A DNA stretch of 64,000 nucleotides, taken from NCBI RefSeq assembly GCF_900403705.1, contig NZ_OUNR01000012.1:124001-188000 (forward strand), written 5' to 3'. How positions within the stretch are numbered: the first letter of the stretch is position 1; each line of letters opens with the position of its first letter. A program made the position numbers and the translations under genes. Under the pieces are notes generated by a model. That model was not told where the DNA came from, searched no databases, and was given only the letters and a program-made list of their open reading frames with translations. This document shows positions 3,105-64,000 of the stretch, in pieces. The DNA comes from Nitrospira lenta. GTDB taxonomy: Bacteria; Nitrospirota; Nitrospiria; Nitrospirales; Nitrospiraceae.

Positions 3105-4964
3105 TCAGAGAAATTGGTTTTCTGGAATCGCGAGCGTGAAGTATTTCTCCCGCTCTTCATAGAGGATACGACGGCTCGTCAAGACACCCAGCGCATCATT
3201 CAGCTCGTCATCAGACAGTGTCATGTCACGCTTCGCTTCTTTTAGTACGGCCCGAATCTGATCCCTGCTCTTCGCAGCCTCATTGCAAGCCTCGATGATG
3301 CCTGCGGCTGGCCAATCGAACCGCTGCCTGGTCGGAGCCTGAGGATCCCGTCCGTCATACACCGTGATGTAGTCCATAGACTTTGAGTAATACAAAAACG
3401 GTCGGTCGCTGCCGCGCGCCCGTCGCTGCCATTCCTCCACCAGACCGACCAGTTCCTGATAGAGATGCGGATCCACCGGCCAGTGATCCAACTCATACTC
3501 GAAATCATAGGCGATCTTGAGCAAATCAAGGCGCGCCGCATCATACACATACTCATAGGCCATCCCCGGCCCCGTAATCCGCACACCATATTCATGCGGA
3601 CGCGTAAAGTAGGGACTGAACCGCTGCAGCCAGAATTTCCCGGTCGCTTCCGGCGCCTGCAAATGGAAGAGCGAGGGAAGCAAATCGATCTGCCGCCGAT
3701 AATCCTCATTCGTCTCGCCAGGGAATCCGAGCAGAATATTCCAGGACACCGCGACACGGTAGTAGCTACTCCACTTCAGACACAAGATGTTCTGCATGGG
3801 CGTCACGCCCTTATCCATCGCCTTGAGCTGCGACAGGCTGAGACTCTCCAGGCCCGGCTGCATACACTTCACGCCCCCCACCGCGAGCATGCGGATCTGA
3901 CTCTTCTGAAGATTGCTCTTAGTTTCGATGAACACATCGAGATCGCAATGCGCCGCGGCAAACTGGCCGAACAGATTCTCGACATACTTCATGTCGATGA
4001 TGTTATCGACCAGCCTGAACCGGGTCGTGTCGTACCGGCTGGAGAGCGCCGTCATCTCGCGCGCCGCCTGATCCGGCGATTTCGCCCGGAACTTCATGCT
4101 CTGGGCATTGAGGCCGCAGAACGTGCAATGGTGCTTCTCCCCCCACCAACAACCGCGCGAGCCTTCGTAAAGGAGAATGCGGTCCAGGCCCTGCGCTGCA
4201 TCCCCGAGTTCGGCCAGCAGATGGTAATAGTCGTCGTAGTCCGGAGGCCCGGTCTTCGCGAAATCGGCAAACAGCGCCGGGTTCGGTGTAAATCGAATCC
4301 GATCCTGCTCTCGGAAGATCACTCCATTCGGAACCGCGTCAGACGTACCCTCTAGGACATGGCGCACGAGGGCAGGCACCACCTCTTCTCCTTCGCCCAC
4401 CACGACATAGTCGATAAAGGGAAACGCCCTGAAGTATTCCATCCCCATCTCGCCGTCATAGTTCGCCCCGCCGAAGACGATCTTCACCTCTGGATACAGA
4501 TCCTTGATCATCTTCGCCAGCGTCAGGCTCGCCACATTCTGATCGAAGGTCGAGGTAAAACCGACGAGTTTGTACTGACCCCAATCAATCGCCGTCATCG
4601 CCCAGGTCAGAAACTGCGGCGCCGTCCTCGTCGCCATGTCTTCAAAAAAGGAGATCGGCTGCCCGCTCTCCTGAGCCACTTGCTCGAAGACCGGCTTAAA
4701 GACCCGCGGGTATTCCGCACGCTTGGGATTGTCGCGAAACAGGAGATAGGAAAAGAGCCACTCCCCGAAGAGGGCGCGCTTCTCGCAGATCATTTCATAG
4801 AGAGGGACACCGATCTTGTGGGCGAAACGGACGTTCAAATGGTGGCAGTCGACGGGAATCCCCTTCGACTTGAGCAGCGCAGAGAGGGTGCCCAGTTGGA
4901 TCGAGGGGTACTTCGAATAACTGAACGGCATGTTGATGAGCGCCACCTGCGCCTGATCGCTCAT
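3105..4964 (-). CDS. B12-binding-type radical SAM protein of the RiPP maturation family (rSAM 'ocin' type 1)
   Basis: 619 residues. The N-terminal half (about 1-210) has a cobalamin-binding Rossmann-like layout (VALINMPF ... LGTLSALL ... VGFTSTF ... VFGGANYDGEMG ... VVVGEGEE). The radical SAM core follows, opened by SRGCWWGEKHHCTFCGLN, a CX7CX2C cluster motif instead of the usual CX3CX2C. This motif and the following MKFRAKSP are hallmarks of the family called RiPP maturation radical SAM protein 1. SAM-core elements PGLESLS and ILLGFPGET are present. The last 120 residues form a C-terminal extension. Members are believed to C-methylate or otherwise modify ribosomal peptides, but no standard precursor is obvious here. 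The ATG at 4964 follows a GATGAACGGACGAGG stretch. It is transcribed alone. Confidence 0.88.
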   Translation of the reverse strand: MSDQAQVALINMPFSYSKYPSIQLGTLSALLKSKGIPVDCHHLNVRFAHKIGVPLYEMICEKRALFGEWLFSYLLFRDNPKRAEYPRVFKPVFEQVAQESGQPISFFEDMATRTAPQFLTWAMTAIDWGQYKLVGFTSTFDQNVASLTLAKMIKDLYPEVKIVFGGANYDGEMGMEYFRAFPFIDYVVVGEGEEVVPALVRHVLEGTSDAVPNGVIFREQDRIRFTPNPALFADFAKTGPPDYDDYYHLLAELGDAAQGLDRILLYEGSRGCWWGEKHHCTFCGLNAQSMKFRAKSPDQAAREMTALSSRYDTTRFRLVDNIIDMKYVENLFGQFAAAHCDLDVFIETKSNLQKSQIRMLAVGGVKCMQPGLESLSLSQLKAMDKGVTPMQNILCLKWSSYYRVAVSWNILLGFPGETNEDYRRQIDLLPSLFHLQAPEATGKFWLQRFSPYFTRPHEYGVRITGPGMAYEYVYDAARLDLLKIAYDFEYELDHWPVDPHLYQELVGLVEEWQRRARGSDRPFLYYSKSMDYITVYDGRDPQAPTRQRFDWPAAGIIEACNEAAKSRDQIRAVLKEAKRDMTLSDDELNDALGVLTSRRILYEEREKYFTLAIPENQFL

Positions 4965-13605: not shown

Positions 13606-15243
13606 TCACGCGCTCTTGAATCGCGTCACTCTCGCAAAACCAATCGCCGCCAACGGTAGAGCTAGTCCTAAGAGCAATTGCGCGATGAGGAGCGGCCCCA
13701 GCTGACTATAGTCGGCGGGCGTTTGAACGGCGCCCGTTGCCTGGTCGTGCACCTCTCGCGTGACCACATACACCTCGTTCAAATATTTGGTCCCAAGCTG
13801 GCTCAACGACAGCGCCAGGTTCGTGAACGAGGCCATCACGGCAAAGAACGTGGCTTTCAAATTCTCCGGTGCTGAGTTGGCGATCCACGCCAGCATCGGA
13901 ATCATGGAAATCTGCCCGAGCGGGGATTCCAACGCCGTATCGATCAAGGCAATAAACCGCGCATCGATAAATCCGCCAGTCATCCGTGCAGTCCATTCGT
14001 GCAAGCCGTAATACATGCTCACCACCGGCAACGTGAGGATGGTCCCAATCACCGTCAGAAATCCCACCACATATGCGATGGATCGCTCGGCCATGAACCG
14101 CCGAAAGACAAACATGCCGGCCAGCGTCAACGTACTCCCGATCAGCGAGAGGATCGACAGAAATTGTTGATCGAACTTCAGGTGATCGATCATCCACCAG
14201 GTCGCCCCAGGGCCGGTGCCGGGAATCGCGCGGAAGATAAAGACGACCACGGCTGTCCCCACCAGCGTCAAGCGCTTGTCCGGTTCCAACTCACGCACTA
14301 GTCTGGCCATGAGGAACAACACGATCGCCATGGAGCCGATGAAGACGATTTCTTCACTATACGAAGAGCCGCCAAATCCGACCGTCACAGTAAACAGCGC
14401 GAAGACCAGGCTTCCGCCGAGAATCCACCAGTTGGGTTTCGTCGCGTCACCGCCATCGCCCCGGACATTCACCATCTCCTTCACCTGCGCGCGGGTGAAC
14501 CCCTGCTGAATCAGCGCGGCCATATGTCGCCGCCGCAGCATCCAGGCGACACCCACACCCAGCACCGACACAAAGGGAATCGCCAGCGCCAGCAGATACA
14601 CTTGCTTGTACAACCGAACCAGCTCCGCCTGCGGCAACCCCTCGGTGCCGCTGAATACATAGACGTTGATCATCGCCACCAGAATGCCGCCGCCCACAAT
14701 GGCCACGCGCCCGAGCGTCTGCATCGTCGTATGCATAAGCTTGCGCGTCGGCTCGTCAAACAGCCGGCCCTTCTCATCGACACGCGGCACCGCCTCGACA
14801 GTCATCGCATCGGCGACCGCATCCTGAATCACGTAGCCCACCGGCGCGAGCAACGTGCTCAGCACAAACCAGACTTCCGCCGGGAGCATCGCCGTCATCG
14901 CCTCACGATTACCGATCAGCGCGGCCATGATCCCGAGACTGACCGCCAGCAAACCCGCCCCGAGACCGACGAGCCAGCTCTTCCAACGCCACAAGAGATC
15001 CACCGTATGTCCAATAGGCATCTTGAGCGCCCAGGGAATGCCGGCCCAGAATCCGAGTGCCGCCAGGAATGAGGCCGAGAGGCCCAGATAATCTTTCACG
15101 AAGAATGTGCCGACGATGCCGGTCAGACCGGAAATCCCGTACGCCATGTAGACCATAAGCGGCGGAAGATACGACAGCCGCATCTCACGGCCTAAGGAAA
15201 GAATGTTGCGATCAATCCACTCGCAGATGCCGGTCAGTTTCAT
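13606..15243 (-). CDS. MFS-type transporter, possibly folate/biopterin (BT1) like
   Basis: 545 residues with about 12-14 hydrophobic helices and a long charged middle loop. The early helix region VYMAYGISGLTGIVGTFFVKDYLGLS and GIPWALKMPIGHTVDL resembles the start of BT1/FBT-family major-facilitator transporters; GYVIQDAVADAMTVEAVPR is also typical of that group. A folate or pterin substrate is therefore possible but not proven. ATG 15243 has an AAAGGACC ribosome site. It lies 9 bp after the glycosylase stop, so the two are almost certainly co-transcribed, with the DedA-rhodanese gene next. Confidence 0.75.
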   Translation of the reverse strand: MKLTGICEWIDRNILSLGREMRLSYLPPLMVYMAYGISGLTGIVGTFFVKDYLGLSASFLAALGFWAGIPWALKMPIGHTVDLLWRWKSWLVGLGAGLLAVSLGIMAALIGNREAMTAMLPAEVWFVLSTLLAPVGYVIQDAVADAMTVEAVPRVDEKGRLFDEPTRKLMHTTMQTLGRVAIVGGGILVAMINVYVFSGTEGLPQAELVRLYKQVYLLALAIPFVSVLGVGVAWMLRRRHMAALIQQGFTRAQVKEMVNVRGDGGDATKPNWWILGGSLVFALFTVTVGFGGSSYSEEIVFIGSMAIVLFLMARLVRELEPDKRLTLVGTAVVVFIFRAIPGTGPGATWWMIDHLKFDQQFLSILSLIGSTLTLAGMFVFRRFMAERSIAYVVGFLTVIGTILTLPVVSMYYGLHEWTARMTGGFIDARFIALIDTALESPLGQISMIPMLAWIANSAPENLKATFFAVMASFTNLALSLSQLGTKYLNEVYVVTREVHDQATGAVQTPADYSQLGPLLIAQLLLGLALPLAAIGFARVTRFKSA

Positions 15244-15252
15244 GAGGTCCTT

Positions 15253-15888
15253 TCACAATACCGTCGTCTCCTGTTTCGCCCGATCGGCTGCGCGCCACAA
15301 ATACCAGGCCGCCGCCGTGCGATACGGTTTCCATCGTTCGCCATAACGCAACACCTCTTTCGGCGTCGGCATCGTACGGCGGCGATAGGCAATGCGAAAC
15401 CCGTTGCGCACACCAAAGTCATCCACCGGCAAGACATCCGGCCGGCCCAGCTGGAAGATCAACAGCATCTCGACCGTCCAGCGGCCGATCCCGCGCACCG
15501 CAACAAGCCGTTCGACAATCGCGTCATCGTCGAGCATCTTGATCGCACGGCCGGTCGGGACCGTTCCATCAAGTGTCTTGGCTGCGAGATCGCGTAGAGC
15601 CAGCACCTTGGCGCCTGAAAAACCCGCTCCGCGAATGGCATCAACATGGACCGCGAGCAGTTCGGCGGGACGGGGAAATCGTCGGCCGGGAAAGAGCGCG
15701 ATGAACCGCTTCAGAATGCTTTCGGCCGCCTTTTCATGGAGCTGCTGAAATGCGATAGCCCGGACGAGAGACTCGAAGGGAGTACGGCGCACTTTCGGGA
15801 GCAGGGAGAATGGCCCCACGTCGCGGATCAGCCGGCCCATCACCGGATCGACCTTGGCCAAGTGTCGAGTTTGCTGAGAATCCTTCAT
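15253..15888 (-). CDS. DNA-3-methyladenine glycosylase II-like protein (HhH-GPD superfamily)
   Basis: 211 residues. The enzyme removes alkylated bases to start base-excision repair. The helix-hairpin-helix VRGIGRWTVEML is at about residues 131-142 and the catalytic Asp lies in LPVDDFGVRNG (probably D157). AIAFQQLHEKAAESI is the conserved N-terminal helix. It lacks the N-terminal domain of E. coli AlkA, so it matches the shorter bacterial Mag-type enzymes. First gene of a probable three-gene operon with an MFS transporter and a DedA-rhodanese protein; the functional link is not obvious. Confidence 0.9.
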   Translation of the reverse strand: MKDSQQTRHLAKVDPVMGRLIRDVGPFSLLPKVRRTPFESLVRAIAFQQLHEKAAESILKRFIALFPGRRFPRPAELLAVHVDAIRGAGFSGAKVLALRDLAAKTLDGTVPTGRAIKMLDDDAIVERLVAVRGIGRWTVEMLLIFQLGRPDVLPVDDFGVRNGFRIAYRRRTMPTPKEVLRYGERWKPYRTAAAWYLWRAADRAKQETTVL

Positions 15889-16013
15889 CCTAGATCACGC
15901 ACCGGCCTTGCGGACCATGCGGCAGTATGCTCAAGCAGATCACGGCTCTCGCACGCCCAACCTTGGCGCATAGACGTACTCGCCGCTGTACTCTGAGACC
16001 CTGAGCGTTGCGC

Positions 16014-16046
16014 CCTGCCTGCGCGAAGCGCTTCGGCGGAGGCAGG
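16014..16046 (-). terminator. Stem-loop 3' of the RidA gene
   Basis: CCTGCCT (16014-16020) pairs with AGGCAGG (16040-16046), with further GC-rich pairing inside. It lies about 30 bases after the stop codon of the RidA-family gene. It may terminate that transcript, although no T run follows. Confidence 0.4.
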
Positions 16047-16078
16047 AAACATCGCCGACTGTCTCGTTCGGCATTCTG

Positions 16079-16465
16079 CTACTGCGGCGCGATCGCATCC
16101 GCTTCGATCTCGACTAACATCTCCGGATCGATTAGCCGCTTCACTTCTACCATCGTCGTCGCGGGCCGGATATTCCCGAAGACCTCTCCGTGCGCCCGGC
16201 CGACCTCTTGCCATTGGTCGATGTTGGCCATGTAAATTCTCGTTCGCACCACGTCGGCCAGCGACACCCCGGCTTGGCGCAACGCCGTCTCGATAGTCTT
16301 GCACGTCTGAATCGTCTGCGCATAGGGATCGCCTTTGCCGACCAGACCGCCTGGCGTCATGGCCGTCGTCCCCGACACTTGCACATGGGCACCGACCCGC
16401 ACGGCGCGTGAATACCCGATTGTGGCTTCCCAGGGGCCTCCGGTGGAAACATTCTGCCGTGCCAT
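16079..16465 (-). CDS. RidA/YjgF family protein
   Basis: 128 residues from ATG 16465, preceded by AAAGGAG. RidA-type proteins deaminate reactive enamine or imine intermediates and form trimers in the cytoplasm. Typical elements are VQVSGTTAM, DPYAQTIQTCKTIETAL, VVRTRIYMANIDQW and the VEIEADAIA strand at the end. The Arg that binds the substrate carboxylate in RidA corresponds to RTRIYM. Members with a PATTMVEV segment, as here, include both enamine deaminases and divergent relatives, so the substrate is unknown. Separate transcript, with the SDR and nitroreductase genes upstream. Confidence 0.9.
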   Translation of the reverse strand: MARQNVSTGGPWEATIGYSRAVRVGAHVQVSGTTAMTPGGLVGKGDPYAQTIQTCKTIETALRQAGVSLADVVRTRIYMANIDQWQEVGRAHGEVFGNIRPATTMVEVKRLIDPEMLVEIEADAIAPQ

Positions 16466-16648
16466 GCTCACTCCTTTGTCAGATTGTCGTTAGCTAGAGA
16501 GTACGGTTCTTGTTCGGTGCGCGCCGCACCACAACTGCCGGGAGAGCGGGATCGAGACGGTGCGCAATCGACGAATTTCCCGGCCCGCCGCGTTATACCA
16601 CGCCGGCTGACCGAACGCTCCGGTCATAGCCGTACTCTCACACATTTC

Positions 16649-17380
16649 CTACATGGCGATGCCGCCGCCGGCTTGAATCGTCTGTCCAGTTAGCCATCGG
16701 GCCTGCTCACTGACGAGAAACGCGACGACCTCGGCAATATCCTCCGGCGTGCCCAATCGCTTGAACGGCGACAGCTGCACCCCCATCTGCCGATAGGGCT
16801 CGGTCAACACGCCTGTATCGGTGAAGCCTGGCGCCACCGTATTGACGGTGATCCCGCGCGGCGCCAGCTCCTGCGCGATGCCCTGGGTGAATTGTTCGAG
16901 CGCACCCCGGCTGCCGAGATACGCGGTCGCTCCACTGTAACGCAGCTTCGTCCCCGCACTGGAAATATTCACGATACGCCCGTGATCGCGCATCACCTTC
17001 GCCGCTTCCTGCATGGCAAAGTAGGGGCCTTTCGCATGCAAGGCCATGAGCGCATCGAAGTCCGCTTCAGTGGTGTCGAGGAAGGGGATCGGCGCAAACT
17101 TCCCAGCATTGTTGACCAGAATGTCTACGCGGTTGAATTGGGAGACGGTGCTCGCAACCAGCCGTCGCGCGTCGGCGATCACGCGCATGTCGGCTTGCAC
17201 CGCGACGGCGGTCCCGCCCTTGCCCTGAATGCCCGCGACCACCGCCCGAGCGTTGTGCTCGCTCCGGAGATAATTCACGACGACGAGGGCCCCCTCCGTC
17301 GCTAGCCGCTCGGCGATCGCACGACCGATTCCGCTCGACGCGCCGGTAACGATCGCCACCTTTCCATTCAGGGAGGACAC
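16649..17380 (-). CDS. Short-chain dehydrogenase/reductase with YxxxR instead of YxxxK
   Basis: 243 residues of the classical SDR fold, NAD(P)H-dependent. The cofactor motif TGASSGIG is at 12-19, NNAG at 90-93 and the catalytic Ser in NISSAG at about 140-141. The catalytic Tyr is Y154, but the lysine normally four residues later is Arg (Y154-LGS-R158), confirmed by the codon CGG. This lysine normally lowers the Tyr pKa and holds the ribose, so activity may be altered. The rest (PRGITVNTVAPGFTDT, GTPEDIAEVVAFL) looks like a 3-oxoacyl-ACP reductase-like member. The stop of the upstream nitroreductase is 12 bp away, so they are co-transcribed. Confidence 0.88.
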   Translation of the reverse strand: MSSLNGKVAIVTGASSGIGRAIAERLATEGALVVVNYLRSEHNARAVVAGIQGKGGTAVAVQADMRVIADARRLVASTVSQFNRVDILVNNAGKFAPIPFLDTTEADFDALMALHAKGPYFAMQEAAKVMRDHGRIVNISSAGTKLRYSGATAYLGSRGALEQFTQGIAQELAPRGITVNTVAPGFTDTGVLTEPYRQMGVQLSPFKRLGTPEDIAEVVAFLVSEQARWLTGQTIQAGGGIAM

Positions 17381-54013: not shown

Positions 54014-54892
54014 TCAGCCGGCGCCGACTTCGTTAAGAAGAGCCTTCGCGGCTGCTTTCCCAACATTGTTGGAGGCGAACGGACTATCCCCCGTGATCAA
54101 CCGCCGATCTTGGTGTGTCTGACCGGTGATGTCGCTGTTAAGAATGGTGACCCCCAGCGCTCTCAATTTTTCACCGATGAGCCACGGCAGTCTACCAGGC
54201 ATATAACCGATGTCCGGCGTCTTCTCGTCAATGGAGTCAGGGAAGACACAGATACTATAGCCCTTGAAGAGGTACCGGTCCTTGGTCTCGCCGACGGCGG
54301 CCGCCAGTAGCGCAGCCGGGCCATGGCATAGCGAGATGATGTATTTCTCTCGTGCCACGGCCCACTGCAACACTGTCTTGACGTCCAGACTGAATGGAAT
54401 GCCGGCCAGGGCTCCGTGGCCGCCGGGTATAAAGACGGCGATATAGTCGGAATGATCGCCCAACTGGTGTGCGATCACGTCCGACAGGGTCAACGGGCTC
54501 TTCAGCTTCTGGCGATACTTATCGTAGATGCTCCGGACCGCAGCGTCCTCTTTCGGCAGCGCCCAGAGTTCCAGCTTAACGGGATTTCCCGAGAGCGTCG
54601 CGATGTCGATCGTAAATCCTGCTTTGTCCAAATGATACATCGGCAGCAACATTTCGACAGGATGGTTGCCGGTCGAAAACATCGTGCCGTTTTGCATGAG
54701 CAGGTAACGTTCGTCCGTGGCGATCATCAACACTTTCCACTTCCCGCCGCGGTAGGCGTTCGGGTACTCGGCCGCGTCTAGATCGGACTTAGCCGATGTG
54801 AATTTCCCGAGGGAATAGGGCGAAGGAAAAAAAGCGTTATCTTCGGCAGGATCGGGAGTCGGGCGCTTGTCATCGGATGGTTCGGTCGTCAT
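54014..54892 (-). CDS. hchA: Hsp31-type glyoxalase III / chaperone (HchA, DJ-1/PfpI superfamily)
   Basis: 292 residues from ATG 54892, chosen because AAGGAG precedes it. The DJ-1 fold has the nucleophile Cys in [14 protein letters not shown], with [14 protein letters not shown] and [13 protein letters not shown] as Hsp31-specific parts; the extra N-terminal segment is typical of HchA. It acts as a methylglyoxal glyoxalase and holdase chaperone, and may repair glycated proteins. A charged, low-complexity N-terminus (about 25 residues) is present. Convergent with the hydrolase gene. Confidence 0.92.
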
Positions 54893-55083
54893 GCAGTGCT
54901 CCTTCTCTGTAAAAAGTACGGTCGCTAAGGTCGGCACGTAACGAGAGAATTGCAATGAGGGCGGCCTCTTGTCAAGACGGTTCTCGCCACCGGTATGAAA
55001 AAGTAGGGTTCACTCAAGACTCAGGGAGAGTCCGGAGGCATCGACGGTTGGAGGAGTGAGAAGGTCGGATTTTCAGCGACCGA

Positions 55084-55625: not shown

Positions 55626-55967
55626 CTAGGCGCTTTTGGCCTTCTTCCCGAAATATTCCTGACGGCTCACCGACACATCCGTGACGAACATGACCCCGGA
55701 GTGCTTTTCAAACAGCGGCCGAAGGCCGGAGAGGATCGGCTCGACCTTGTCTTCCGGGACGACGGTCATGATCATCTCGAGGCTTTCCTGCTCGCTGAAC
55801 ATGAAATGGGCCTCCCGAACGCCGTGGTGCCCCTTGCCGGCCAGGTTGCCGATGATGGTATAGCCGGTCGCTTTGACGCGATCCAGCAACTCCGTCACAA
55901 AGGCCTGGTGCTCTCCCGCGACGATCACACGAATCTCTTTCATCGGATGCAATGTCAACGCGCCCAT
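55626..55967 (-). CDS. PII-like regulatory protein adjacent to DabA
   Basis: 113 residues from ATG 55967, chosen because AGGAGGACT precedes it. A PII-like ferredoxin fold: KEIRVIVAGEHQAFVTELLDRVKATGYTIIGNLAGKGHHGVREAHFMF, VVPEDKVEPILSGLRPLFEKHSGVMFVTD. The T-loop area lacks the Tyr and typical GlnB motif, so it belongs to a divergent group (SbtB/CPII/PamA-like) rather than GlnB. Divergent PII proteins of this kind often accompany bicarbonate or ion transporters, and here it follows dabA, 197 bp apart. Adenine nucleotide or bicarbonate sensing is inferred. Confidence 0.8.
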   Translation of the reverse strand: MGALTLHPMKEIRVIVAGEHQAFVTELLDRVKATGYTIIGNLAGKGHHGVREAHFMFSEQESLEMIMTVVPEDKVEPILSGLRPLFEKHSGVMFVTDVSVSRQEYFGKKAKSA

Positions 55968-55992
55968 CTGAGTCCTCCTTCCTTCGCTGCGT

Positions 55993-56104
55993 GGGCCTGT
56001 TGAACCCCCCGCCAGCATCGTTCTCGCATCGCTCAAAGATCAACGTATCAATATTGTACGTCTGGTCTCTTGGCTCGCGGCGGCTTTTTTAATAGCCTCG
56101 TGTT
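55993..56104. repeat. Copy of the dispersed palindromic repeat between dabA and PII-like gene
   Basis: Starts GGCCTGTTGAACCCCCCGCC, then AGCATCGTTCTCGCATC, with an imperfect centre CGTATCAATATTGTACG and the closing GGCGGCTTTTTTAATAGCC. Terminal complementarity is partly eroded. It fills most of the 197-bp gap between dabA (stop 56165) and the PII-like gene (start 55967). Confidence 0.75.
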
Positions 56105-56164
56105 GATGACGCTTGCTCTACCAAAACTGTTGTTCGACGTGCTTTCCGCGCAGGCACGGTCTCG

Positions 56165-59100
56165 TTACGCGAGCGGCACCCATTCGCCCGTGGGGCGATA
56201 CCGATACCACAGCTGGTCATCGGGGTCGAGGGCAACGAGGTGTACCCACTCGTTGTGATAATAGTGCCGCAGGATTTCGTGCCGCTCGATCAGTTTGTCG
56301 ATGCGGTCGCGCGGCGCCTCCACGATGCTCAGAAGCCGCATCGGTTCGTGGTAGGGGACGTCGCCGTTCATCACCGTTTGTCTGGCCAAGCCCAGACGGA
56401 GGTCGCTCCAGGGGCCCGACATGATTCCGATCCGTCCCACGACGTTATGGTAGATCTTGCTGCCGCTGCCGTACACGTCGTTGTCGACCGCGGAAAAATA
56501 ATGCTCCATGTTGATCCATTGCGCCACGACTTGCGGGCCGGTCAACAACACTTCCAGGAGCCGGCTGCTCGGATCCTGGCGCGCGTCGTAGGATTGCAGA
56601 AACACCCGTCCTTCGAGGTTGAGTCCCCTCGTCAGTTCTCGGCGCCCGATCACAAACGCCGTATTGCTCGAGAGGCCCCACTCTGGCCTGACCTGACTCC
56701 AGTCTACACTCCGTTGCCGCACGTGCGATTCAGCGGCGCCCTCGTCCAGCGGCTGCTCCACGTCAGGAAAACGTGTACACCGTTCCTGACTCGTCAGGGT
56801 GGAGGCTTCCTTCAGATCTCCCTGGAGCCGCGCCAGGTCGGCGCGATGGGTGGGCGGCACATCTTCCAGATCGAACAGTTGGACTTCATCCGTCGTCGTA
56901 TCCATCTGGCCGGCCAGAAAGTGGGTGTCGGGCGGAATCACCAGTTTATTCTTGGCCAGCCGCTCGCGCACTTTTTGGTTGTTCGCCATCATGGCCAGGG
57001 CGCGGGCATTCGGTTTGCCTTCGTTGCCGCCGCAGGCGCCGCAGTCCAGGGCCGACTCATAGGGATTGTTTTCCGACGTACTGCCGTGGGCGCAGATCAG
57101 GACCAGCCGGGCCAGGTTGTTCGTCAGCCCCATCATCCGCAGGGCCGTATCGACCGTGAGGGTCTGTTCCTCCAGCGTGAACCCGGTCCGGGTGATCCGT
57201 TCCTTCTGCCGAGAGGCTGCGCGCGCGGTGAGGTCGTACTGGCGCCGGAGGATATCGACGAGTGTGCGCAAGACCTCCGGCGAAAGCTCGGCGGGTTTCG
57301 CCGCGTCCAGGAGCACCGTGTCCAGATCGGCCTGGCCGTTCAGCGCTTGTTGCCGCAGGGTTTCGACGAGGACCGGGGTGATGCGCGAGCTGCGCAATCC
57401 GCCCTGCTCATGCAGCACTTTTCGGACGACGGCGTGGTGTTCGGCCGCCAGCATCTCCGCGGTTTCGGCCGGGGCCATCTTGTCGACGGTCAGCGTCGTC
57501 GCGATGGCCGGGACAAACAGGCGCCGCAACCAGGAGGTCCAGCGCTGATAGAGCGACGGCAGGAGGGTCTTGCCGAAGATCGGCAGGCCGTAGAACCAGC
57601 CGAGCGATTCCACCATGACATAGGGGGTCACGACATTTTCTTTCAAATCGTGCAGCAGCGTATGGCCGGCATGGACCCACTTGGTGCGGGCTTCGTGTTT
57701 CGACACTTTGTGATCGAGATAGCTCCGGGGGATTTCGCGCACCTCGTTCTTCGCGCGCATGATCACGGGGAACTGCTCGGTGTCGTGTTCCTTGCCCCAG
57801 GCGCGATAGCGTATGAAGGCCGCGAAGAATCCGGCGAAGCCGTAGGTCTCGTGCGGGCCGGTAGACTCCAGGTGCCGGCGGAACGGCTCGGAGCGCACAT
57901 CGATGCAATAGACCGATTGCGAATAGGGGCGGTTCGTACCGGGCTGGTCCGCCGGCAGGGTGCGCTGCTGCGGCGTGGTCCGCAACTGGGCGAGCAGACG
58001 CTGCTGGTAGGCGGCCTCCAGTGCTTTGAGCCACACCGGTCCATGGTCCGACTCGGGAAATGACTCCATCCAGTCGAAGAGCTGCTTCAGCACGGCGTGT
58101 GGCGTTTCGGCTAAGACGGCCGGATCCAGTTCCAAGGAGCGAGCCAATGCGATCAACTGCTTGGCGGCGCCGCGTCGGGCGGCAATTTCCTGCCGTGGGA
58201 CTACGTCCGTCCCGTAGCGCTCGATGACACGACCCCACCCGTTTCCTTTGTGATGCCGGAGCCGATCCACTTCCTCGGCATATAGCGCGGGCAATCGCCC
58301 GGCGACCCGCTGTCTCCTCAGATAGTATTCGTCGGGGTGCTCGCGCATATAGGCGACGATGGCGTCGTAGCGCCCCTCAATGCCGAGTTCTTCGCGGCAG
58401 GTCTTCTGCACCAACTCGCTGGCGTACCAGATGCGGATGGCGAGAAATTTCACGAGGCCGACCGGATAGGCTTTCTGCCAGGGATAATCGCGTTCTTCCG
58501 CGCGCCACTTGATGAAGCCGGCCCAGCCGGGGAGCGCGGTCAATTGCAGCGACAAGTAATCCTGGAGCAGATTAGCGGGAATGCCGAGTGCGTCCAGACT
58601 TTGCCGCAGCGCGTCCTCCGGATGGTCGGGCAGGCGGGATATTTTTCTCCGGCTGTCGGCGATGCCGCAGGGCGACCATTCCTGAGCTGCCAGGTCTCTC
58701 CAGGCGTTGTAGAGTCCTTTTTCCCGTCCCGGCATCGCCCAGGTGGCATGGCCTTCATCCAGGAAGGCCTCGCACCACTTAATGAGTTCATGGTTGATCT
58801 GCTGGACGATCTGTGTCCCGAAGGTGTCGTCGCACCAATGCGACAGCGTGAGCCACCGGCCCAGGGCCGCTTGGTCGCCTTCGACAATGCGGTGAATCCG
58901 CTTGCGGAGATCGGGGAAGGCCCACTCGGAAGACAGACTCGCCGCCACGATGTCGATCACGGCTTGCGCGGGATCGTGGAGTTGATCGTCCAGCGGCTCC
59001 GTCGCAAGGGCGCAGAGGCCATCCGTGAGACAGGCTCGCAACACGTCGCCGTGCGGGATCCGGCGCGAGCCGATCGTGACCGACTGATCCAGAACGAGCG

Positions 59101-59377
59101 ACTTCAAGGCGGCATCGAGATGGCCCAGCTCGATCCGGCCCGTCTTCAGATACTCGCGATAGAGCGTGCCGGGAAGATAACTATGCCCTCCCATGAATTG
59201 CTTGCCGCGCCGGGCCGTCTCTTCAAACGGGAGATATTCAAGGCTGTGGAGCGGATTGTGGTGGACGAAGGTCCGCATCGGCCAGTACTGCGCAATCACT
59301 TCACCGGCGAGTTGGACCACGCCGCGCAGCTCCATCCGTCTGGATTCGATATCGAGCGCCGGGTTTATCGGTTCCAT
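56165..59377 (-). CDS. dabA: DabA-type (DUF2309) inorganic-carbon transporter subunit
   Basis: 1070 residues, longer than the sulfur-bacterium DabA (about 830). DabA is a soluble, beta-carbonic-anhydrase-like zinc protein that, together with a NuoL-like DabB, drives energy-coupled CO2 or bicarbonate uptake. Zinc-site residues are visible: C491 and D493 in YCIDVRSEP, and H764 with C779 in CAHGSTSEN...LDCGACGG. N-terminal PMRTFVHHNPLHSLE is also conserved. The final 300 residues are an extension with GNGWGRVIERYG and others. It overlaps the NuoM-like gene by 13 bp, evidence of co-transcription. Confidence 0.93.
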   Translation of the reverse strand: MEPINPALDIESRRMELRGVVQLAGEVIAQYWPMRTFVHHNPLHSLEYLPFEETARRGKQFMGGHSYLPGTLYREYLKTGRIELGHLDAALKSLVLDQSVTIGSRRIPHGDVLRACLTDGLCALATEPLDDQLHDPAQAVIDIVAASLSSEWAFPDLRKRIHRIVEGDQAALGRWLTLSHWCDDTFGTQIVQQINHELIKWCEAFLDEGHATWAMPGREKGLYNAWRDLAAQEWSPCGIADSRRKISRLPDHPEDALRQSLDALGIPANLLQDYLSLQLTALPGWAGFIKWRAEERDYPWQKAYPVGLVKFLAIRIWYASELVQKTCREELGIEGRYDAIVAYMREHPDEYYLRRQRVAGRLPALYAEEVDRLRHHKGNGWGRVIERYGTDVVPRQEIAARRGAAKQLIALARSLELDPAVLAETPHAVLKQLFDWMESFPESDHGPVWLKALEAAYQQRLLAQLRTTPQQRTLPADQPGTNRPYSQSVYCIDVRSEPFRRHLESTGPHETYGFAGFFAAFIRYRAWGKEHDTEQFPVIMRAKNEVREIPRSYLDHKVSKHEARTKWVHAGHTLLHDLKENVVTPYVMVESLGWFYGLPIFGKTLLPSLYQRWTSWLRRLFVPAIATTLTVDKMAPAETAEMLAAEHHAVVRKVLHEQGGLRSSRITPVLVETLRQQALNGQADLDTVLLDAAKPAELSPEVLRTLVDILRRQYDLTARAASRQKERITRTGFTLEEQTLTVDTALRMMGLTNNLARLVLICAHGSTSENNPYESALDCGACGGNEGKPNARALAMMANNQKVRERLAKNKLVIPPDTHFLAGQMDTTTDEVQLFDLEDVPPTHRADLARLQGDLKEASTLTSQERCTRFPDVEQPLDEGAAESHVRQRSVDWSQVRPEWGLSSNTAFVIGRRELTRGLNLEGRVFLQSYDARQDPSSRLLEVLLTGPQVVAQWINMEHYFSAVDNDVYGSGSKIYHNVVGRIGIMSGPWSDLRLGLARQTVMNGDVPYHEPMRLLSIVEAPRDRIDKLIERHEILRHYYHNEWVHLVALDPDDQLWYRYRPTGEWVPLA

Positions 59378-60696
59378 ACAAGCGATCCTGGGTTGGTGCC
59401 GGCGGGTTCCGAGTGAACGCCGGTTGTGGCGGTCGTCTGATCCGATCCGAACAGGCTGATCGGGGTCACGCCCAGTGCGAGTAGCGTCAAGACGACGATG
59501 ATCAGCGCCACTAGCTCACTCTGGAGCAAGTCGGCGTAGCGCAAGTCGGTGCGGCGCGTGCCGAACAGAAGCCTCTGGACCAGATCCAAAATGTACCAGG
59601 ACGACGCCAGCCAGGCACAGACCAGCACAATAATGCCGGTCGAAAAGGCTGCGGTAGACGACAGCAACAGACCCATGAAGCCCGCGAACACGCCGAACGG
59701 CGGCAGCCCCATGGCGGCCAGTGCCAGCAGTGACAGCAGCACGGCATACTGGGGCATGGTGGAGGCCAACCCGCTGATGGCTTGCGGATCCACGTCGTCT
59801 CCGTAGCGCGTGCGGATAATTTGCCAGGCCAACAGGAGCCCGCACATCACGAGCCCGACGGCGCCGACGAAGAGGGCGGCGCGCGGGGTGGCTGTGCGTG
59901 TGGTCACGACACACCACCAGAGCATCGAAAAGAACGAGAGACTGCTGTAGGCCAGCAGGAGTCGTACGCGCGATTGGGCCAGCGCCTTGATGGCGCCATA
60001 GATGGCGCCGGCCAGGGCGAGGACGCTCATCACCCAAACGACGGGATCCGGCAATGTCGGCGCGAGCGGGGCCAGGGCATGCAGGCCGAGCGCCGGAAAG
60101 AGCAGGACCATGAACGACGGCAAATTACCGGGCAGCCGGGTCAACGCGGTGAGATGCCCGTCGTGAAAGGGCACCACGGGCAGAAGAATCGTGCAGGCCA
60201 GCAGCGCCGCCATCGACGACAGCGGCGGGGCGGCGACCAGCGTCAGTACCAGACAGAGGGCGCCGAGGGTGTAGGCCCCGAGGCCCCACCAGGAAATGGG
60301 CCAGAGCGGCGTGTGATGGCGATAGAGCAAGACGATGACGAAACCGTGGATCGCGATCAGGAACAGTTTGGCAGTGACCGGCTGGCTTGCGAGCGCGCCG
60401 AGTCCCAGGCTGAGCGCTACCAGGGTCAGAACCCAGGAGGCGCGATGGTCCAAGTGATGCGGTTGGCCCAGGAGTGACACCCCAGCGGCGAGCGGAAGCA
60501 AAAACAGCAGGAGCAGGCCTTCGGGCGGCGCCGTCAGCGCGCCGGCGAATACAGCGACAGACGCCAGGCTGACGGCGCAGACACCGACCGACCAGGTCAT
60601 GAGCCGGTGGGGGTGGGCCCACCAGGCCGGGCTTAACGCCGCGCCCAGCAGGGGCACGCCCGCAAGGATCCAGGGAATGAGGGTTGCGTCGATCAT
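59365..60696 (-). CDS. NuoM/antiporter-like membrane subunit
   Basis: 443 residues from ATG 60696, which overlaps the upstream NuoL-like stop as ATGA (GTG at 60705 is the alternative). About 13 hydrophobic helices. The antiporter-like core is recognisable in LLPVVPFHDGHLTALTRLPGNLPSFMVL, LAGAIYGAIKALAQSRVRLLLAYSSLSF and MGLPPFGVFAGFMGLLLSS, the last matching the PP.GF segment of NuoL/M/N and Mrp-type subunits. The charged helices that move protons in true NuoM are only partly conserved. It sits between a NuoL-like subunit and DabA. Confidence 0.82.
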   Translation of the reverse strand: MIDATLIPWILAGVPLLGAALSPAWWAHPHRLMTWSVGVCAVSLASVAVFAGALTAPPEGLLLLFLLPLAAGVSLLGQPHHLDHRASWVLTLVALSLGLGALASQPVTAKLFLIAIHGFVIVLLYRHHTPLWPISWWGLGAYTLGALCLVLTLVAAPPLSSMAALLACTILLPVVPFHDGHLTALTRLPGNLPSFMVLLFPALGLHALAPLAPTLPDPVVWVMSVLALAGAIYGAIKALAQSRVRLLLAYSSLSFFSMLWWCVVTTRTATPRAALFVGAVGLVMCGLLLAWQIIRTRYGDDVDPQAISGLASTMPQYAVLLSLLALAAMGLPPFGVFAGFMGLLLSSTAAFSTGIIVLVCAWLASSWYILDLVQRLLFGTRRTDLRYADLLQSELVALIIVVLTLLALGVTPISLFGSDQTTATTGVHSEPAGTNPGSLVWNR

Positions 60697-62405
60697 CGAG
60701 ACCACCCGCGTTCGCGTTTATCGAAGCGATGGACGATGCGCATGACCGTCCGTCCCAGCAGTTGATAGAGTTCGTCGGCGTACAACCGATTCATAAACAG
60801 GACATATAATCCGTTTCGTCCGCTCTCAACCCAGCGTGCGGCCCACTTCGGCAGCCAGATCGTCCGGCCGTGGGCCTGCATGTAGAGATAGCACCAGCTG
60901 AGGACGGTCATGACCGTGGCCATGAGGACGATGCCGTCGAACATCCAGTTGGGCAAGTCCGCGGCTTGAAAATAGGACGCGACTTCCGCGGGATTGGGAT
61001 ACAGGAAGGCCGTGAACGATTCGACGGCGAATAAATAGACGAAGACGACGAAGAGCAGCGTCATGAGCATCGCGGAGGACACTTTCCAAGAGGCGATCGC
61101 GCGTAGCCGTGTGAGGGTCAAAATGGCCTGCGACGAGGTCAGCCAAATGAAGAACAGGAAGATGACCGTGCCTTGCGATTCGAGCAGCGGGATGCGTAGG
61201 ACTCCGTGGGTGACCAGCAGAATGACCAGGGGAATTACCAGCGTCGTTACGAATCCGGTCGACCAGGTGAGCGGGGAGAAGTTTTCTTCCTCTTCTTGCT
61301 GATCAACATGGGGGATGTGCGGCTCGTGCCGGGCTTTGTGAATGACGTTCCCGCAATTCAGGAAGACGGTGGCTTTGAAGAGTCCGTGGGCGATCAGATG
61401 AAATACGGCCAGCGAAAAGGCGCCCAAGCCGCACTCCATGATCATGTAGCCCATCTGACCGATGGTCGAGAAGCCGAGCGTTTTCTTGATGTCGTTCTGC
61501 GCCAGCATCATGGTAGCGCCCAGTACCGCGGTCAGAGTGCCCACGACGAAGGCGACATGCAGTGTCGTCGAGCTGAGTCCGAAGAGCGGCGCCAGCCTGT
61601 TGATCAAGAAGCCGCCCGCATTGATGATCCCGGCATGGAGCAAGGCATGCACGGGTGTCGGCGCATAGAGCGACCGGGGCAGCCAGAAATGGAGCGGAAA
61701 CTGCGCGGATTTCCCCATGGCTCCGACGAAGATGAGCAGGGTGACGGCCGTCGCAGCGCTGATGTCGAGCCCGGGCCAGAGCGAGAATACGACCGGACTC
61801 TCCGTGGCCCGCGCAAAGAGCTCTTGAAATTCCAGCGTGCCGTAGACGCGGTAGGCCAGGACGATGCCAGCCAGAAAGGCGGCATCGGCGACGCGCAACA
61901 GCGTAAAGGTGTTGAAGGCTCCCTTGAGCGTCGCCGTATGCTCATGATTGTGCGCGAGGAGATAGAGCAGATAGCTCAGGATTTGCCAAAAGAGAAACAG
62001 CATCATCAGATTGGCGCTGGAGACCATGCAGATCAGCACAAAGTCCGTGAAGCAGATCAGGGCCAGATACCGGCGCATGTGGCGATCCTGATACATGTAG
62101 CCGGTCGAGTAGACGAAGATCAGGGTGCTCACGCCCGCGATCAACGTCATCATGATGGCGCTCAGCCGATCGATGTAGAAGCCGATCGGGAAAATGAGCG
62201 CGGCCATCGACCCCGGATCGTAGAAGCGAATGGAAATGGGCCCCTGCACGGCGACGACATAGAGGGTTCCGATGGCGCCGCAACAGGCCGCTCCGATCGG
62301 ATAGGCGGCGATCTTCGCGCGAAGGTCGCGCGTCTCGTCGGGGCCAATCAGTACGATCAACGCAGCCGCGAGTAATAGCAATGGGATGAGCAGCACGAAC
62401 GACAC
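60693..62405 (-). CDS. NuoL-like proton/sodium-translocating subunit (DabB-like)
   Basis: 570 residues, NuoL size. Core signatures: NLMMLFLFWQILSYLLYLLA, GAMGKSAQFPLHFWLPRSLYAPTPVHALLHAGIINAGG and AQNDIKKTLGFSTIGQMGYM (conserved Lys), followed by a long hydrophobic C-terminus. The KSAQFPLHFWLP and QMGYM segments identify the antiporter superfamily. DabB of the DAB system belongs to this group. It sits in a row with a NuoM-like gene and dabA, with the stop overlapping the next start. Its closest relative is the partial NuoL-like gene at 62647-64000. Confidence 0.9.
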   Translation of the reverse strand: MSFVLLIPLLLLAAALIVLIGPDETRDLRAKIAAYPIGAACCGAIGTLYVVAVQGPISIRFYDPGSMAALIFPIGFYIDRLSAIMMTLIAGVSTLIFVYSTGYMYQDRHMRRYLALICFTDFVLICMVSSANLMMLFLFWQILSYLLYLLAHNHEHTATLKGAFNTFTLLRVADAAFLAGIVLAYRVYGTLEFQELFARATESPVVFSLWPGLDISAATAVTLLIFVGAMGKSAQFPLHFWLPRSLYAPTPVHALLHAGIINAGGFLINRLAPLFGLSSTTLHVAFVVGTLTAVLGATMMLAQNDIKKTLGFSTIGQMGYMIMECGLGAFSLAVFHLIAHGLFKATVFLNCGNVIHKARHEPHIPHVDQQEEEENFSPLTWSTGFVTTLVIPLVILLVTHGVLRIPLLESQGTVIFLFFIWLTSSQAILTLTRLRAIASWKVSSAMLMTLLFVVFVYLFAVESFTAFLYPNPAEVASYFQAADLPNWMFDGIVLMATVMTVLSWCYLYMQAHGRTIWLPKWAARWVESGRNGLYVLFMNRLYADELYQLLGRTVMRIVHRFDKRERGWSR

Positions 62406-62646
62406 GGGTACTCCATAACACCGGAAACACCGGAACGTGATGATCTCTCTTCTATCCCTCGCCCTCGCGCCTCGCGCGAACCCGGCATCGGGCGGTCACA
62501 GACCGCGTCAGAGGGCCCTCTCGGCGTCCATCATTAGTACGTTGTCTAGACCATCGTCAAGCACCGAGTCGGCTTGAATCTTCCCCGGCGGACCTGCCGT
62601 CGCTCTCGCCTGTTCTGCCCACGACGCTTCAGGGGAATCCGCCGCC

Positions 62647-64000
62647 TCATCGTTCCGCGCGATTGTCGAGACGGCTGGCGGTCTGTGCGATGGCCCGGCC
62701 GAATCGATCGTAGAGCCCGTCCACGTACAACTGGTTCATGAAGAGAACGTAGAAGCGGCTCCGCAGGCCTTCCACCCAGGCCGGCATCCACACGGTCCGG
62801 CCATGGGCGCGCAGATAGAGATAGCACCAGCTGAGGACGGTCATAACCGTGGCCATGAGCACGATACTGTCGAAGAGCCAGTTCGGAAGATCCGCGGCTT
62901 GAAAGTAGGACGCGACTTCCGCGGGATTGGGATACAGGAAGGCCGTGAACGATTCGACGGCGAACAAATAGACGAAGACAACGAAGAGCAGCGTGACGAG
63001 CATGGCCCCCGATACTTCCCAGGAGGGCACCGCGCGCAGGCGGGTGAGCGTCAAAATGGCTTGCGAGGAGGTGATCCAAATAAAGAAGAGGAAGATGACG
63101 GTGCCTTGGGATTCCAGCAAGGGAATGCGCAGCACGCCGTGGGTGACCAGCAGGATCAGCAGGGGAATCATCAAGGTCGTCGCGAATCCGGTCGACCAGG
63201 TGAGGGGAGAAAATGCCTGTTCTTCCTCCTGCCGGTCCGCATGCGGGAAATGCGCTTCCTGTCTGGCTTTGTGGATCACGTTGCCGCTGTTCAGGAACAT
63301 GGTGGCCTTGAACAGTCCGTGGGCAATCAAATGAAAGACCGCGAGCGAGAAGGCGCCCAGGCCGCACTCCATGATCATGTAGCCCATCTGACCGACCGTC
63401 GAGAAGCCGAGGGTCTTCTTGATGTCGTTTTGCGCCAGCATCATGGTGGCGCCCACGATCGCCGTTAGTGTCCCCACCACGAACGCCACATGCAACGTCG
63501 TCGAACTCAGCCCGAACAAAGGCGCCAGCCGGTTGATCAGATACCCGCCGGCATTGATGATGCCGGCATGGAGCAGCGCCGTCGCGGGCGTCGGGGCATA
63601 GAGATAATGGGGGAGCCAGATGTGGAACGGGAACTGCGCCGATTTACTCATGCCGCCGATAAACAGAAGCAGCGTCACGGCCGTGGCTCCGCTGATCTCC
63701 CATCCCGGCAGGGGCGACAGCGTCACGGATGATTCAGCCGCCTTGGCAAACAAGGCCGGAAACTCCAGCGTTCCGTAGAGGGCGTGGGCCAGGACGATTC
63801 CCGCCAGAAACGCGATATCTCCGACCCGCAACAGCGTGAACGTCTTGAAGGCTCCTCCCAGCGTGCCCGCATGGGCATGGTTATGGGCGAGGAGATACAG
63901 CAGGTAACTCAGGAGTTGCCAGAAGAGAAACAGCATCATGAGGTTCGCGCTGGAAACCAGGCAGAGCAGGACGAAGAGCGCCAGACCGATGAGCGCGAGG
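62647..64000 (-). CDS. Second NuoL-like subunit, 5' end beyond window
   Basis: The frame is open to the right edge; about 451 C-terminal residues are visible. Signatures: MSKSAQFPFHIWLPHYLYAPTPATALLHAGIINAGG, AQNDIKKTLGFSTVGQMGYM and NPAEVASYFQAADLPNWLFD. It is strongly similar to the neighbouring NuoL-like gene, with a 59-bp identical DNA stretch (60973-61031 versus 62906-62964). Shared segments are so close at DNA level that recent duplication or gene conversion is likely. Separated from the next gene by about 240 bp without features. Confidence 0.88.
   Translation of the reverse strand, partial: LALIGLALFVLLCLVSSANLMMLFLFWQLLSYLLYLLAHNHAHAGTLGGAFKTFTLLRVGDIAFLAGIVLAHALYGTLEFPALFAKAAESSVTLSPLPGWEISGATAVTLLLFIGGMSKSAQFPFHIWLPHYLYAPTPATALLHAGIINAGGYLINRLAPLFGLSSTTLHVAFVVGTLTAIVGATMMLAQNDIKKTLGFSTVGQMGYMIMECGLGAFSLAVFHLIAHGLFKATMFLNSGNVIHKARQEAHFPHADRQEEEQAFSPLTWSTGFATTLMIPLLILLVTHGVLRIPLLESQGTVIFLFFIWITSSQAILTLTRLRAVPSWEVSGAMLVTLLFVVFVYLFAVESFTAFLYPNPAEVASYFQAADLPNWLFDSIVLMATVMTVLSWCYLYLRAHGRTVWMPAWVEGLRSRFYVLFMNQLYVDGLYDRFGRAIAQTASRLDNRAER

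Follow-up and report, generated by a model that had tools for sequence, protein, structure and literature searches.

The question raised by the locus described here is why a genome that encodes both subunits of a DAB-type inorganic carbon pump should also encode a second copy of the channel subunit and a third, NuoM-like membrane protein. The locus lies at one end of a 64,000-nucleotide stretch of Nitrospira lenta DNA, referred to below as the window (contig NZ_OUNR01000012.1, or C12:124001-188000), from a 3.76-Mb assembly that is 99.98% complete. How DAB pumps move inorganic carbon was solved only recently, and the extra membrane protein found in their three-subunit form is so far without an explanation. 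We consider it likely that these genes specify a DAB1-like dissolved-inorganic-carbon accumulating complex (DAC), in which DabB would provide proton influx, DabA would hydrate CO2, the NuoM-like protein (M) would be present without pumping, and a PII protein of the carboxysome-associated type (CPII) would tune the complex. What was observed directly is the order of the genes, their homology, the conservation of residues, the fusions, the selection, and the duplication. The genes concerned are the following.

62647..64000, minus strand, extending to what would be window position 64398: DabB1, the first NuoL-like copy, 583 amino acids in total (open reading frame, PF00361)
60693..62405, minus strand: DabB2, the second NuoL-like copy, 570 amino acids (PF00361, 168 bits, and PF00662)
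59365..60705, minus strand: M, a degenerate NuoM-like third subunit, 446 amino acids (PF00361, 44 bits; start at GTG 60705 or ATG 60696)
56165..59377, minus strand: DabA, long form, 1070 amino acids (PF10070, 881 bits)
55626..55967, minus strand: CPII-type PII-like protein, 113 amino acids from the likely ATG (PF00543, 77 bits)

Open reading frames and Pfam matches confirmed the series given in a preliminary description of the window, namely a partial NuoL-like gene followed by NuoL-like, NuoM-like, DabA, and PII genes. DabB1 is cut solely by the window edge and is complete in the genome (L003:10647-12398, 583 amino acids). The overlapping stop and start codons reported to join DabB2, M, and DabA are likewise real: DabB2 and M share ATGA at 60696-60693, or 13 nucleotides if M starts at GTG, and M and DabA overlap by 13 nucleotides. 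The spacers are 241 nucleotides between DabB1 and DabB2 and about 197 nucleotides between DabA and the PII gene. The DabA gene (PF10070) is thus accompanied by a NuoL-like DabB (PF00361), the pairing by which a DAC or DAB locus is recognized, with M between them. The comparison of gene order across Nitrospira that had been proposed gave the order DabB1-DabB2-M-DabA-PII in about 29 of 47 named Nitrospira loci; many of the remainder end at contig ends, and a few (L041 and L044) have a single DabB. The named loci closest by M protein are from Nitrospira metagenome-assembled genomes, at 83 to 92% identity. All five genes show strong purifying selection, with ratios of nonsynonymous to synonymous substitution (dN/dS) of 0.03 to 0.15, which together with the recurrent order excludes a chance arrangement. 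What is conserved throughout the Nitrospirota is DabB-M-DabA-CPII, in most cases with an mpsC gene close by.

The H. neapolitanus DabA2 (PDB 9rd0_A) matches the window DabA with an E value of 7.5e-105. The zinc-binding residues, the Asp-Arg dyad, and the finger residue Glu444 of DAB2 were defined by a 2026 cryo-electron microscopy study, and replacing the zinc ligands, the dyad, or Glu444 with alanine abolished or badly impaired function (PMC13144422). We mapped the functional residues of the window DabA onto 9rd0_A and counted their conservation across 37 relatives, with these results.

57905..57907, minus strand: codon of DabA Cys491, the zinc ligand equivalent to DabA2 Cys351, with Asp493 and Arg495 next (37/37)
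57638..57640, minus strand: codon of DabA Glu580, the finger glutamate equivalent to DabA2 Glu444 (37/37)
57041..57088, minus strand: DabA His764 to Cys779, the other zinc ligands, equivalent to DabA2 His524 and Cys539 (37/37)

The dyad Asp493/Arg495 is invariant in all 37 relatives and so is Leu902, and the position of DabA2 His585 is Met in the window protein. By analogy with DAB2, protons would enter through a DabB, Glu580 on the membrane finger of DabA would complete the proton path and couple it to the buried zinc site, and that site would hydrate CO2 to bicarbonate in one direction. The DabA chain had been described as some 240 residues longer than that of sulfur bacteria, which is correct relative to DabA2; in the alignment the surplus falls into three inserts, at DabA 102-197 (about 56 residues), 296-418 (about 77), and 620-733 (about 108). 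We rejected the long DabA as a peculiarity of this genome. Frames of about 1080 to 1130 amino acids are usual in the genus, and every M-bearing relative examined has a long DabA, as does Nitrobacter (1037 amino acids). Several members of the genus (G045, G047, G048, G049, G028, G043, and G032) have unusually long DabA open frames, of about 1380 to 1466 amino acids, in which a large insert separates the N-terminal from the catalytic part.

M is long enough to be recognized as a decayed antiporter subunit. E. coli NuoM matches it with an E value of 1.2e-10, and its AlphaFold model (pTM 0.81) aligns with NuoL, NuoM, and MrpD chains with Z scores of 25 to 30 and root mean square deviations of 3.3 to 4.3 over 342 to 388 residues, indicating an antiporter-like fold. 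The residues corresponding to NuoM Lys234 in transmembrane helix 7 (TM7), His322, His348, and Glu407 in TM12 are mainly Leu, Phe, Val, and Phe, respectively, in 85 M members. Just 3 of the 85 retain a His at the His322 position, and NuoM Lys265 is unmappable owing to an alignment gap. On the strength of this loss we rejected M as a third working pump, and it is unlikely that M adds the greater energy coupling per bicarbonate or CO2 that the preliminary description had envisaged. M is under purifying selection (dN/dS 0.12 to 0.15) and carries RTRYGDDVDPQ as a conserved signature in the genus. Its sequence is most simply read as that of a decayed pump retained as a structural or regulatory part. 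Most likely, M would pack against DabB as a nonpumping scaffold with a structural or regulatory role; complex I geometry suggests the TM5 face of DabB, the face at which NuoM meets NuoL, as a possible site. Complex I and the Mrp antiporters share the fold of M and DabB; unlike them, the locus lacks NADH, quinone, and FeS subunits, and the M pump residues are lost. A complex I fragment or a 2M-complex I paralog was rejected, since there are no electron-transfer nuo genes beside the operon and the PF00361 clusters are separate, the further PF00361 genes of the genome lying at C1:802-807 kb and C12:100-106 kb.

Natural fusions place M with DabB. In ten loci and one partial locus, DabB is joined to the C-terminal half of M in one frame of about 870 to 970 amino acids (for example, L139:8147-10780), the fused M portion spanning the M profile from 136-167 to 414-438, and these loci form one clade (support value 98). 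The fusions indicate that M belongs with DabB and suggest a 1:1 association of the two. They also lead to the third subunit of known DAB pumps. The preliminary description had treated these as pairs of one DabB and one DabA, which is true of DAB2 but incomplete: H. neapolitanus DAB1 has three subunits, including the small hypothetical membrane protein hneap_0908 (PMC13144422), and YbcC (DabA) operons with several NuoL or NuoM homologs are known (PMC5700660). DAB1-type loci (hneap_0907/0908/0909 and a Nitrobacter hamburgensis plasmid) share with the window locus a DabB followed by a third membrane protein before DabA, and the Nitrobacter type also shares the long DabA and the PII gene. The N. 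hamburgensis plasmid carries two copies of DabB-X-DabA-PII, where X is a 253-amino-acid hypothetical protein. The third subunit of the DAB1 type is short, with no Pfam match in the case of Nitrobacter X, whereas here it is full length and recognizably NuoM-like, and DabB is duplicated in addition. X aligns to the C-terminal half of M (hhalign probability 93) and scores 35.7 bits on the M profile, the shuffles listed reaching at most -2.3. Complex I NuoM-type proteins score as high as X or higher on that profile, so the score indicates superfamily kinship only; for orthology with M, the indication is that X occupies the same place in the gene order. We therefore regard X, on sequence comparison, as a remote homolog of M and assign M to the place of the third subunit in a DAC of the three-subunit, DAB1-like kind, its gene lying, as in DAB1, between those of DabB and DabA. 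The unexplained third DAB1 subunit is then probably a reduced, degenerate antiporter subunit. No plasmid searched carried M, and X was found solely on its own plasmid.

The DabB proteins resemble the channel of DAB2. DabB2 of H. neapolitanus matches the window DabB2 with an E value of 1.3e-35, and both window copies keep R168, D171, K229, H254, K304, S310, H333, H337, and K341 (DabB1 numbering). Indeed, the DAB2 proton-path residues that have been tested, Ser256 excepted, are present in 64 of 64 duplicated DabB copies. DAB2 (PDB 9rd0) and the window locus have in common the DabA fold family, zinc ligands, dyad, finger Glu, DabB path, and loss of NuoL Glu144. That position is Gln in both window copies and Ile151 in the DabB2 of DAB2, which further differs in having two subunits, a DabA shorter by about 240 residues, and neither M nor a DabB duplicate.

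A tree of 99 DabB proteins shows that DabB1 and DabB2 derive from a single duplication within the Nitrospiraceae, DabB being single copy elsewhere in the phylum. Residues that differ between two channels of one machine are thereby revealed. Position 228 is Ser in 32/32 first copies and Gly in 29/32 second copies, position 242 is Tyr in the first copy and Ser in the second (32/32 each), and position 250 has Thr in every DabB1 and His in every DabB2 (32/32 each). By spacing, position 250 corresponds to DAB2 Ser256, an alanine mutant of which was impaired (PMC13144422). The Ser242/His250 state of the second copy matches most fused and examined single-copy M-bearing family members, and DabB1 is for this reason probably the derived paralog, with DabB2 nearer the ancestral state. 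The second DabB of L035, L039, and L079 is DabB1-like over about residues 1 to 240 and DabB2-like from 241, which looks like recombination that spared the C-terminal half, the part near the DabA finger in DAB2.

DabB2 would probably partner M and DabA, and DabB1 would probably be a substitute for it as channel subunit, one in which protons enter differently. One specific form of this, which concerns the role of DabB1 alone, has the two DabB proteins alternating on an M-DabA core as interchangeable modules of high and low affinity or adapted to different pH, a proposal to which we give a little less than an even chance. Fixed differences around the proton path at 32/32 loci for each copy speak for it, as do the three recombinant DabB2 copies that retain a DabB2-like half from about 241; however, the tandem gene order is equally compatible with coassembly of the two.

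Coassembly is the basis of an unlikely reading, in which DabB1, DabB2, and DabA would form one complex with M as a spacer, giving two channels per DabA and more protons per bicarbonate. It can draw on the fact that purifying selection has long maintained the duplicated DabB, each paralog with residues of its own at 228, 242, and 250, on the shared gene order, on the complex I precedent, and on the several-ion idea already published for such operons (PMC5700660). Several findings run the other way. One finger per DabA would complete just one channel, and that single finger favors DabB1 replacing DabB2 rather than joining it. The region of NuoL Lys399, the TM12 lysine, has no conserved Lys in either DabB copy as judged by alignment, and in DAB2 the role of this lysine is assumed by the single finger Glu of DabA (PMC13144422). 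The mapped pump residues are gone from M, a single DabB is usual in the rest of the phylum, and the gap between DabB1 and DabB2 contrasts with the overlaps that join DabB2, M, and DabA. We are similarly skeptical of an arm resembling that of complex I, made of DabB1, DabB2, a pump-dead M, and one DabA, in which each CO2-hydrating unit would use two channels or would switch from one to the other as CPII directs. Of the larger ion-coupled complex initially proposed, a multisubunit membrane part with a PII partner has held up, through known families and the DabB-M fusions, and the extra coupling has not; the missing TM12 lysine and the single finger, as well as M, tell against it.

The fifth protein gives a full-length match to the P-II structures PDB 5d4n/5d4l (E about 1e-33), which we take to be Thiomonas CPII. 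That protein is reportedly regulated by bicarbonate. The window PII is accordingly assigned by sequence to the CPII family and is predicted to bind bicarbonate and adenine nucleotides, whereby it would tune the complex to the carbon and energy state of the cell. The PII partner was thus seen correctly at the outset, and its description as nucleotide sensing was too narrow. It resembles CPII in sequence over its full length and is here the neighbor of a DAC in a genome of the Nitrospira group. The role of the third subunit is one matter on which the locus bears; another is the bicarbonate supply of Nitrospira, a genus with a central place in the nitrogen cycle. A search of this genome for beta- and alpha-carbonic anhydrases (PF00484, PF00194) found none, the gamma and iota classes not having been searched, and this makes the DACs the best candidates for supplying bicarbonate here.

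Several points weigh against the reading of the locus as a proton-driven DAB1-like DAC. Its activity, direction, and stoichiometry, the position of M, and the target of CPII are all deduced from the genes. AlphaFold, given 37 close homologs, produced a poor model of DabA (pLDDT 56) that was kept out of the fold searches, so the insert positions given above are those of the sequence alignment, and the M model is weak at 304-342, its most conserved stretch. The tie between hneap_0908 and M is presumptive, drawn from gene position and from the remote homology of Nitrobacter X to M. Lack of carbonic anhydrase is not a rule, because most other Nitrospira genomes carry the beta class (PF00484 in 50 of 76 genus members searched). 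Finally, the homologous MpsAB of S. aureus has a sodium-linked activity and has been argued to use sodium, not protons (PMC6689103; PMC13144422).

This last point raises the doubtful alternative that the N. lenta proteins are a sodium-driven bicarbonate transporter in the manner of MpsAB rather than a proton-driven CO2-hydrating complex. A homolog of mpsC does adjoin the locus, just outside the window, and was overlooked in the preliminary description.

L003:12707-13081 (C12:188707-189081), plus strand: MpsC homolog (PF10057, 121 bits), divergent, about 0.3 kb upstream of DabB1 and outside the window

Of the 69 loci that extend far enough upstream, 48 have an MpsC homolog, in nearly every case next to DabB. 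S. aureus MpsABC shares with the window locus the DabB and DabA homologs MpsA and MpsB and an mpsC gene beside the operon. It differs in that no M or CPII has been described for it, sodium coupling is argued, and mpsC is dispensable for MpsAB function (PMC6689103). Against sodium stand the zinc site, Asp-Arg dyad, and finger Glu, which are all retained here, and the solved homolog DAB2, which did not need sodium (PMC13144422). Weakest of all, and very improbable, is a stress-tolerance operon such as that claimed for Leptospirillum och, which was chromate induced and whose DUF2309 protein lowered reactive oxygen species in E. coli (PMC9080137): the catalytic residues and CPII linkage indicate inorganic carbon, a function that the available text on och does not consider.

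No paper describing this operon in Nitrospira was found in the literature searched, and Scott et al. (2024), in the portion available, treat dissolved inorganic carbon transporters in Nitrospirae in general terms only. Klimchuk et al. (2017), using COGNAT, reported YbcC/NuoL operons with PII (clade B) or with NuoM and SulP (clade C) and proposed that more membrane subunits would mean more ions, the function being then unknown (PMC5700660). The multisubunit idea of the preliminary description is therefore not new. As far as the accessible text goes, clade B resembles the window locus in having one or more NuoL homologs, then YbcC, and PII at the 3' end, whereas clade C has NuoM and DabA upstream of NuoL and SulP, and no analysis of fusions or residue loss accompanies either (PMC5700660). 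What is new here is the loss of pump residues from M, the DabB-M fusions, the link between M and the third subunit of the DAB1 type, and the signature residues by which the two DabB paralogs differ.

Other arrangements were also seen. One Nitrospira-group genome with five DabA matches has a tandem DabA in the order DabB-M-DabA-DabA-CPII (L084:6788-16778). A second DAC lies on contig C5 of the same genome as the window, with DabB and CPII together and DabA about 9.2 kb downstream (L081:2696-4390, 4492-4821, 14029-17295); its sister locus L082 is a contiguous DabB-DabA-CPII without M. In some DabB-M fusion loci (L136-L139), mpsC is directly upstream in the same direction. In many Nitrospira genomes, a carbonic anhydrase domain sits within open frames of about 750 to 780 amino acids (for example, G051:C67:31415-31903), which are possibly transporter-carbonic anhydrase fusions. 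Promoter and terminator scans gave results at chance level only. Downstream of the operon, at window 54014-54955 on the minus strand, is a gene for an HchA-type glyoxalase III/deglycase (NCBIfam NF003168, 478 bits).

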